Positions 36,907-39,732 of a DNA stretch of 64,000 nucleotides are shown here, in pieces; the stretch's first letter is position 1, and the number at the start of each line of letters is the position of its first letter. Origin of the DNA: Verrucomicrobiaceae bacterium. Lineage in GTDB: Bacteria; Verrucomicrobiota; Verrucomicrobiia; Verrucomicrobiales; Verrucomicrobiaceae. The notes under the pieces are model-generated. The model was not told where the DNA came from. It was given only the letters and a program-made list of their open reading frames with translations, and did no database searches. Where the stretch lies: NCBI GenBank assembly GCA_016795365.1, contig JAEUHN010000036.1, forward strand, positions 1 through 64,000, in the 5' to 3' direction. The position numbers were made by a program, and so were the translations under genes.

Positions 36907-39642
36907 ATGCTGGCACCAGCGTTTCAACCAAACGCCATGCCACCTCTCATCACCGTCGCTTATCGCCAGGGCATTTACCTGCCTGAGGCGGATCTATGGC
37001 TGGACCCGCACTTCGGGGTGAAGCGGGCCTTCATCTCTCACGCGCATAGCGATCATGTGGCGCGGCACAGCTTGACGTTTTGCTCGGAACTCACTCAGCA
37101 TCTGATGCGTGAGCGCTACTCGGTGAAGGAGAGTGCGACGTTTCAGGCGCTGCCGATGCGAGAAGTCTTCGAGTGGGAAGGCTATGAAATGCGACTGTTA
37201 CCGGCGGGGCACATCGTGGGGTCGGCGATGCTGCATCTGACGCGGAAGAGCGACGGCGCGACGCTGCTTTACACGGGCGACTACAAGCTGCGCCAGGGCT
37301 TGAGTTCGGAGCGTTGCGAGCTGCTGCAAGCGGACTCGCTGATCATGGAGACCACGTTTGGCCTGCCTTCGTTCGTGTTTCCGCTGCTGAGTGAAACGGT
37401 GGCCAGTGTCTTGAAGTTCGTGCAGGAGACGATCGAGGATGGCGGCATTCCGGTGCTGCTCGGTTACTCGCTGGGCAAAGCGCAGGAGATCATCTGCGCG
37501 CTCGCGGATGCGGGTTTCCCCGTGATGCTGCATTCGTCGGTGTGGGACATGACTGAAGCGGTCGCGCCTTTGCTGGGACGACTGCCGGCCTACAAGCGCT
37601 TCCACGCGAGCGAAGCGAAGGGGCATGTGCTGATCTTTCCACCGAGCAATGGCCGCTCGCTGGCGATCAAGAAACTTAAAGGCAGTCGCACGGCGATGCT
37701 CACGGGCTGGGCCTTGCAGCCGGGAGCGAAGTTCCGGTATCAAGTCGATGAAATCTTCCCGCTCAGCGACCATGCGGACTATCCGGAGTTGATCGAGACC
37801 GTGGAAACGGTGAAGCCGCGTCGCGTGCATCTCGTTCATGGTTACACGCAGGAGTTTGCCGCTGATCTGAGAGCGCGTGGTTACGATGCATGGTCGTTGG
37901 AGAAGGCGGATCAAATGGAGCTGTTTCGTGCTTCGCTGGAGACGCCTCGTGCGACGACTCAGACCTCGGATTCCCAGGACGAGGAAGCCTTTGCTCCGAA
38001 CAGTTTCAGCCGTTGGTCGCAGGTGTGTGCGGCGACCGCGTTGGAGTCGTCGCGGTTGAAAAAGATCGCCTTGCTCGCGGAGTATCTACGAGTGCTGGAC
38101 GAGGCTGATCTCGCCCTCGCGGCCCGCTATTGCGCAGGCTTGGTTGGCGACTCCACGGATGCGCCGCTGAACGTCGGCTGGTCATTGCTGCGCCGCACGA
38201 TGCAAACCCTGAGCGGCATCAACGATGCGGAGTATCGCGCCATCTCCCGCTCGCAAGCCGACGCGGGGCGCACGGCTTTCCTCGTGCTGCAACGCGCCGC
38301 CTTGGAACCTGCGCCGTGTTCGCTGGCGGACATCGCGACGTTGTTCGAGACGCTGCGTGATGCGTCCGGTCAGATGCCGCGTGTGACGATGCTGCGGGAG
38401 CGTCTGCGTCAGCTTCGGGCGAGCGATGGCTCATGGCTGGTGCGTCTGATGACGAGCGACCTCCGCATGGGATCCAAGGAAGGCCTCATTGAGGAAGCGA
38501 TTGCCGAGGCCTTCCAACAGAGCGCGGAAGCCGTGCGCGAGGCCGCGATGCTTTGTGGTGACATCGGCCGCGCGGCAGTGCTCGCGAAGCAAGCGCTGCT
38601 GCACGAAGCAATGCCGCGAGCCTTCGTGCCGATCAAAGTGATGCTGGCCTCGCCAGAGGAAACGGCGGCGGACATTTGGGAACGCATGGTGAATGCCGAA
38701 AGCTCGGTCGTCTGGCTGGAAGACAAGTTCGATGGCATTCGCGCGCAGATGCATCGCACAGCGGATCGTGTGGAGATTTTCACCCGTGATTTGAAGCCCA
38801 TCGGTGTGCAGTTCCCGGAGGTGCTGAAGGCAGCGACATCGCTGGCGGACGAGGTGATTCTCGATGGCGAGATCATCGCGTATGCGGAGAACAAGAAGCT
38901 CTCGTTCTTCGATCTTCAGAAGCGGCTGGGTCGTCGTGATCAAGCCGATCTCTTCCTGCCCAGCGATGTGAGTGTGCGTTACGTCGTGTTCGATCTGCTG
39001 TGGCGAAATGGCGAGTCGCTGCTCGACCAACCCTTGCACCAGCGCCGCGAGCAATTGGAGCAGATCGTCATGCCTTCAGGACTGAGTTTGATCGAGGTGC
39101 ATCGCGTTTCGTCGGTTGATGAAATCGAAGCGTCTTTCATGGCCGCGCGTCGTCGGTGCAATGAAGGACTCATCGCCAAAGACGCGACCAGCAACTACTC
39201 GCCGGGTCGTCGAGGCAAGTCGTGGCTGAAGCTGAAGAAGGCTTTCGCGACGCTCGATGTCGTGGTGGTGAAAGCCGAGCAAGGCCATGGCAAACGCAGC
39301 CACGTGCTCAGCGACTACACCTTTGCTGTCCGCGATGAATCGGGCGAGCTGCGAGTGATTGGCAAAGCCTACAGCGGGCTCACGGATGCGGAGATCGAAG
39401 AACTCACCGAGCACTTCACGCGCAACACGATCAGCGAGAAAGGTCGCGTGCGCACAGTGGTGCCGGACACGGTGCTGGAGATCGCGTTTGATTCCATCCA
39501 GGCCAGCAACCGTCACGACAGCGGACTTGCGATGCGATTCCCGCGAATCAAGGCCATGCGCCGCGACAAGACGCCCGAGGAGATCGACACGCTGGCCTAT
39601 GCGCGAAAGCTCGCGGGGCTGGGTGAGGCGGTCGAGAAGTAG
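36907..39642 (+). CDS. Fused metallo-beta-lactamase exonuclease and ATP-dependent DNA ligase
   Basis: Bifunctional protein of 911 residues. Residues 12-340 are a metallo-beta-lactamase/beta-CASP-like nuclease (metal motif FISHAHSDH at 43-50, GHIVGSAML, YTGDYK, LSDHADY), as in ligase-associated DNA exonucleases. Residues from about 370 are an ATP-dependent ligase: N-terminal DNA-binding domain, adenylation domain with nucleophile Lys607 in EDKFDGIRA, EVILDGEIIAY, EGLIAKD and SWLKLKK, then the OB-fold. In many bacteria these are two adjacent genes, normally with a helicase and a phosphoesterase; here they are one chain and neither partner is adjacent. A role in DNA-end processing and sealing is inferred. 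ATG 36937 is an equally possible start. Confidence 0.92.
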   Translation: MLAPAFQPNAMPPLITVAYRQGIYLPEADLWLDPHFGVKRAFISHAHSDHVARHSLTFCSELTQHLMRERYSVKESATFQALPMREVFEWEGYEMRLLPAGHIVGSAMLHLTRKSDGATLLYTGDYKLRQGLSSERCELLQADSLIMETTFGLPSFVFPLLSETVASVLKFVQETIEDGGIPVLLGYSLGKAQEIICALADAGFPVMLHSSVWDMTEAVAPLLGRLPAYKRFHASEAKGHVLIFPPSNGRSLAIKKLKGSRTAMLTGWALQPGAKFRYQVDEIFPLSDHADYPELIETVETVKPRRVHLVHGYTQEFAADLRARGYDAWSLEKADQMELFRASLETPRATTQTSDSQDEEAFAPNSFSRWSQVCAATALESSRLKKIALLAEYLRVLDEADLALAARYCAGLVGDSTDAPLNVGWSLLRRTMQTLSGINDAEYRAISRSQADAGRTAFLVLQRAALEPAPCSLADIATLFETLRDASGQMPRVTMLRERLRQLRASDGSWLVRLMTSDLRMGSKEGLIEEAIAEAFQQSAEAVREAAMLCGDIGRAAVLAKQALLHEAMPRAFVPIKVMLASPEETAADIWERMVNAESSVVWLEDKFDGIRAQMHRTADRVEIFTRDLKPIGVQFPEVLKAATSLADEVILDGEIIAYAENKKLSFFDLQKRLGRRDQADLFLPSDVSVRYVVFDLLWRNGESLLDQPLHQRREQLEQIVMPSGLSLIEVHRVSSVDEIEASFMAARRRCNEGLIAKDATSNYSPGRRGKSWLKLKKAFATLDVVVVKAEQGHGKRSHVLSDYTFAVRDESGELRVIGKAYSGLTDAEIEELTEHFTRNTISEKGRVRTVVPDTVLEIAFDSIQASNRHDSGLAMRFPRIKAMRRDKTPEEIDTLAYARKLAGLGEAVEK

Positions 39643-39732
39643 AGATGTGAAGAGGTCGAGAAGATGCCAAGCTTCTCACCTCTACACCTCTCTACTTTTC
39701 CACCTCTCTACTTTTCCACCTCTCTACTTCCC
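39639..39732. repeat. Purine-rich hairpin plus three 16-bp tandem repeats between convergent genes
   Basis: An imperfect inverted repeat (39639-39663 with 39672-39695; two mismatches and one bulge) surrounds an eight-base loop. It runs into three copies of CACCTCTCTACTTTTC at 39685-39732, the last copy degenerate and overlapping the photolyase stop codon. The hairpin begins inside the ligase stop codon. Position between convergent genes suggests a bidirectional terminator; the tandem copies are unexplained. Confidence 0.65.

Follow-up and report, generated by a model that had tools for sequence, protein, structure and literature searches.

A nuclease-ligase fusion protein with conserved active-site motifs and its candidate partners in a proposed dispersed Lhr/LigB-type repair set

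The fusion gene and its predicted protein

The window, i.e., the whole 64,000-nt stretch of DNA analysed here, carries on its forward strand a gene of 911 codons plus stop (36907..39642) that joins an MBL/beta-CASP nuclease to an ATP-dependent DNA ligase. A first-pass annotation had read this gene as a single-chain fusion, and we agree with this assignment, given that one frame without any internal stop over 911 codons matches both sets of domains. Translation may in fact begin at Met11 (36937), which would shorten the protein to 901 aa, because the alignments of most homologues begin only at about residue 10 and a methionine stands in the Met11 column in 18 of 63 fused rows. At the other end of the gene, a long and very stable hairpin spanning its stop codon (39625..39708, + strand; -47.6 kcal/mol, z -5.8) is a probable terminator. 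A 16-bp repeat in 2.8 copies lies within 39625-39729, between the fusion gene and a convergent photolyase-related gene (PF04244; 39727-41169, - strand), homologues of which are also encoded near the nuclease or fusion gene at loci L111, L116, and L136.

The nuclease half (residues 20-333; 36964..37905; like all following features on the + strand) is supported by its match to TIGR04122, the fold model, and Foldseek. It contains a HAHSDH metal-binding motif (residues 45-50; 37039..37056), apparent from motif reading and alignments, and an RMMBL domain (residues 277-327; 37735..37887; PF07521). A linker of 24 residues with pLDDT < 50 that is predicted to be disordered (residues 336-359; 37912..37983) leads over to the ligase half. 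This half is composed of a DNA-binding domain (DNA_ligase_A_N, residues 366-533; 38002..38505; PF04675), a nucleotidyltransferase domain (DNA_ligase_A_M, residues 579-777; 38641..39237; PF01068) with the codon of the motif I lysine, Lys607, at 38725..38727 (again from motif reading and alignments), and an OB domain (DNA_ligase_A_C, residues 798-888; 39298..39570; PF04679). An MBL/RMMBL nuclease placed N-terminal to DNA_ligase_A_N-A_M-A_C in one chain is, by these Pfam matches, the arrangement that characterises the published family of such fusions.

Judged by profile scores, both halves are homologous to the TIGR04122 and TIGR04120 families yet divergent from them. With the ligase-associated exonuclease model TIGR04122, residues 20-333 score 221 bits, below its curated cut-off of 325; with the models of bacterial ATP-dependent ligases, residues 370-902 score 328 bits (PRK09247) and 304 bits (TIGR04120, below its curated cut-off of 400). 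Both sets of catalytic residues are intact, as had been proposed from the window alone: the HAHSDH motif and Lys607 are part of a set of residues that is invariant in a 24-row alignment (D33, H45, H47, D49, H50, H102, D125, E148, H209, H289, H311, and K607). In a broader comparison, none of the 63 fused rows with a complete N-terminus has lost any of the 11 putative nuclease active-site residues, and position 607 is a lysine in 62 of 65 fused rows and R, L, or a gap in the remaining three. The HxHxDH motif and the further metal-binding His and Asp residues, present in 63/63 fused rows, assign the first half to the MBL/beta-CASP nucleases, and the motif I lysine together with the three ligase domains assigns the second to the ATP-dependent DNA ligases.

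By sequence, the ligase half is nearest to solved structures of archaeal ATP-dependent ligases, and the nuclease half to those of SNM1A (DNA cross-link repair 1A) and CPSF-type nucleases. Modelled alone, the nuclease half reaches pLDDT 94.3 and pTM 0.91, and Foldseek places this model in the CPSF73/SNM1A class (TM by query ~0.65-0.75). In the full-length model, the halves are predicted with confidence (mean pLDDT 86.0), but the overall pTM is 0.56 and the linker is disordered, so that the model does not fix how the halves are placed relative to each other. Structure prediction, suggested earlier as a way to find an interdomain contact, thus yielded no fixed contact.

Spread and history of the fusion

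The fusion is common in this bacterial group and the gene in the window is well conserved. Among 57 genomes of relatives (including the source genome itself), 30 encode the fusion, and the remaining 27 comprise one in which it is split over two contig ends (G019), 11 with a lone nuclease, one with two overlapping genes (G050), and 14 with neither of these and distant MBL matches at most. A search of 387 genomes of the phylum, seven of which are shared with the first set, gave matches at E <= 1e-20 in 85 genomes. These comprise 32 intact fusions (counting G134, which is interrupted by contig ends), three fusions whose ligase half is damaged (G333, G268, and G261), and 33 lone nucleases; the other 17 genomes gave divergent matches of the two-gene, ligase or nuclease-only kind. 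Both tallies are our own reading of the match tables, supplemented by the retrieved loci. Full-length fusions are found in independent assemblies, in some of them on a single contig (e.g., G012, G295, G298, G363, and G140) and also in the named isolate Brevifollis gellanilyticus (L043). The search in other genomes that the first-pass annotation had recommended therefore speaks for a genuine fusion, and an assembly error or frameshift merging two genes, against which it had cautioned, has a negligible probability when dozens of independent genomes carry the same fusion, some of them within one contig.

In another phylum, a candidate fusion with 29% identity over residues 13-907 (G652, L157) was rejected as such, since its nuclease and ligase genes merely abut, sharing one frame but separated by stops; this arrangement is plausibly a step towards fusion. 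No fusion was found at E <= 1e-40 among 297 genomes of G431's phylum (taken as Acidobacteriota), where no row besides G652 covers both halves. Overlapping nuclease and ligase gene pairs are seen at L129, L131, and L132. Two genomes, G771 and G821, encode a fusion plus a second, lone nuclease, and in G771 a stretch of ~7 kb (C35:65590-72753) holds both of these genes together with an Lhr helicase.

A nuclease tree of 107 rows, built by a quick method and containing only eight two-gene rows, separates fusions and lone nucleases from these eight two-gene nucleases with support 100. Lone nucleases are repeatedly nested among the fusions: the fused label changes 17 times, and starred branches of this quick tree force at least 11 of these changes. 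In a ligase tree with only 11 separate ligases, a branch with support 85 (not starred) has all 52 fused ligase halves on the same side, and nuclease and ligase distances across the 52 fused rows are correlated with a Mantel r of 0.87 that was reached by none of 2000 permutations. The simplest reading of these trees would be a single fusion event early in the history of this class, after which the ligase half was lost again and again, usually together with the helicase and phosphoesterase discussed below; since change counts alone do not separate gain from loss, repeated fusion is a possible alternative history. No ligase relics were detected beside lone nucleases at any of 44 lone-nuclease loci. 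The only match among the 45 loci searched was L094 (nuclease plus ligase DNA-binding domain) in G261; this fusion goes no further than the DNA-binding domain and has no catalytic ligase domain, and its genome retains both helicase and phosphoesterase.

Some fusions have kept part of the ligase half in what looks like an inactive form. A survey of 150 genomes of G333's family, in which motifs were read at 23 of 30 returned loci, yielded two sets of such pseudo-ligases from two genera of this one related family. The adenylation lysine is replaced by R, L, L, and L in the first set (L159-L162 in G333, G268, G799, and G815) and by E in all four members of the second (L168-L171 in G791, G740, G808, and G822). 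All eight proteins lack the whole OB domain and have a complete nuclease site, with the nucleotidyltransferase domain still in frame. A single clade for all eight was rejected (AU p 0.003), and the g227 set is nested with the intact relatives G772 and G838. The identity ratio of dead nucleotidyltransferase to nuclease is 0.92 and 0.88 in the two sets vs 1.05 in intact proteins, which indicates that the dead domain evolves somewhat faster but is clearly retained; as dS is saturated or undefined for the dead ligases, the case for selection rests on these ratios.

Being nearly as conserved as the nuclease, the dead domain has probably been kept as a platform that binds DNA or a partner. More generally, we rate it just short of an even call that the ligase half of this fusion family is able to become a non-catalytic domain serving the nuclease. 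If so, the gene in the window would represent the active starting state of a series leading to the pseudo-ligases, and the latter, should they be confirmed, would exemplify how a DNA ligase fold is put to a new, non-catalytic use. A narrow literature search for inactive ligases returned nothing for three of its four terms. In a pseudo-ligase genus, the fused gene of G831 (L163) is broken by several stops and its motifs are unreadable. A long Lhr of ~1450 aa is found instead of the short form in 10 of 13 genomes of g63, g73, and g227 (with the two-gene genome G354 excluded).

Partner genes and proposed function

Neither a helicase nor a phosphoesterase is encoded in the 64,000-nt window, and in this respect the first-pass annotation was right to state that these partners are not nearby. 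Divergent homologues of both do exist elsewhere in the genome, however, and in some relatives they lie close to the fusion. The helicase is an 842-aa Lhr-type protein (contig C25:14047-16515) with DEAD, Helicase_C, WH_Lhr, and DEAD_assoc domains that scores higher with PRK13767 (762 bits) than with TIGR04121 (~665 bits, missing the curated cut-off of 850). The phosphoesterase is a 233-aa calcineurin-like protein (C10:272280-272924) with PdeM as best NCBIfam match (105 bits, below the curated cut-off of 150). Fusion, helicase, and phosphoesterase are thus found on three different contigs of the source genome (G000) and not as adjacent genes, and the fusion is the sole ATP-dependent ligase matched there by the query at E <= 1e-3. 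The idea of a stand-alone fused machine working without helicase and phosphoesterase was rejected for this genome because both are encoded on other contigs. In other genomes (G073, G137, G148, G192, G321, G736, G771, and G834), no more than 1 kb separates the fusion from a helicase match, and in several relatives the phosphoesterase is found at a distance of ~3 kb.

The presence of these partners follows that of the ligase half. After fourteen genomes had been left out, the helicase was present in 35 of the 43 tree genomes that carry an intact fusion vs 2 of 43 with a lone nuclease, and the phosphoesterase in 36/43 vs 3/43 (Fisher p ~1e-13, a value that ignores kinship). A kinship-aware test for the helicase is borderline: its 10 independent pairs split on average into 4.8 for the association, 0 against, and 5.2 without difference (median p 0.0625). 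An intact fusion with neither partner at the thresholds used is seen in seven genomes (G025, G068, G095, G140, G174, G301, and G304); in addition, of the two partners G065 encodes just the phosphoesterase, and in G383 a long Lhr is all that is present.

Partners encoded elsewhere in the genome that accompany an intact ligase half point to a dispersed Lhr/LigB-type repair set. As our main reading, to which we give a probability of roughly 70%, we propose that the protein is the fused exonuclease-ligase of such a bacterial set and acts with a distant helicase and phosphoesterase. The MBL/beta-CASP nuclease half would probably trim damaged or flapped DNA ends and the LigB-like ligase half would then probably seal the resulting nick, with one flexible tether joining the two and with the Lhr-type helicase and PdeM-like phosphoesterase joining in from distant genome sites. 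What we observe in support is a single frame, intact motifs, the predicted fold, wide conservation, co-inheritance of the halves, and co-occurrence of the partners. The protein in the window is probably active as a nuclease-ligase, and trimming and sealing in one pass is plausible; the catalytic activities, the nuclease polarity, the substrate, the hand-over from half to half, and the joint action with the partners are what we infer from these observations. It counts against the repair-set reading that neither half nor the helicase or phosphoesterase reaches the curated NCBIfam cut-offs, and so do the borderline kinship-aware test, the intact fusions that occur with one partner or neither, and the low pTM of the full-length model.

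A tenable though tentative alternative is that the nuclease has the core function with a separate job, while the ligase is an accessory that is kept mainly where helicase and phosphoesterase work. The many lone nucleases nested among fusions, the near absence of the helicase from their genomes, and the complete nuclease sites of all eight pseudo-ligase proteins would fit such a division. The retention of Lys607 in nearly all fused rows, however, indicates that the ligase is under selection where present, and an accessory ligase of this kind is compatible with parts of the repair-set explanation.

It seems slightly more doubtful that the fusion merely equalises the expression of two independent halves without any hand-over of DNA. 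A tether of 24 disordered residues in a model with low pTM would fit independent halves, and related systems do work unfused, e.g., as the overlapping gene pairs mentioned above, but across the whole class the halves are still joined. Double-strand-break end joining outside the Lhr set, as by plant DNA ligase 6 or the Artemis-Lig4 pair, is unlikely: the part of PMC3198793 used here describes both domain types in plant LIG6, yet the fusion co-occurs with helicase and phosphoesterase.

On the preferred reading of a dispersed repair set, the fusion physically links two members of a four-protein repair set that is widespread in bacteria. The recurrent joint loss of ligase, helicase, and phosphoesterase with the nuclease kept amounts to a natural experiment on their mutual dependence.

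Comparison with known nuclease-ligase proteins

The fusion architecture as such was already known, as indicated by those parts of two publications that we draw on, i.e., bacterial fusions in PMC10140301 and plant ligase 6 in PMC3198793. The former reports 13 nuclease-LigB fusions in Antarctic (Dry Valley) metagenomes and credits a fusion of Opitutus terrae (OTER_RS15935) to Ejaz and Shuman 2018. In the sections of this report considered here, one separated ligase module of a fusion seals nicks with ATP, a full-length fusion protein and a soluble nuclease could not be produced, activity of the nuclease half is shown for no fusion, and the damage substrate of the widespread four-protein repair set is described as not known. 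By published description, the O. terrae and Dry Valley fusions have the same domain order as the protein in the window; the one published fusion for which these sections state a length has 959 aa. The O. terrae fusion is reported within the configuration of helicase and phosphodiesterase genes and the Dry Valley fusions outside of it; in the source genome the partners are unlinked, as for the Dry Valley genes.

Compared to the four-gene cluster of LigB, MBL exonuclease, Lhr-Core, and PdeM (MPE), the source genome encodes homologues of all four, though with two genes fused and the other two on other contigs and with scores below the cut-offs. SNM1A/Artemis and CPSF73 share the MBL/beta-CASP fold of the nuclease half at 13-21% identity among the matches listed and have no ligase. 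Plant DNA ligase 6 (AtLIG6), as described in the consulted part of PMC3198793, combines an ATP-dependent ligase with a beta-lactamase/beta-CASP domain in one chain and thus has the same two domain types, but it is eukaryotic. To what these publications describe, the present analysis adds how widely the fusion is spread, that it is linked with dispersed partners, that parts of the set were lost repeatedly, and that pseudo-ligases occur.
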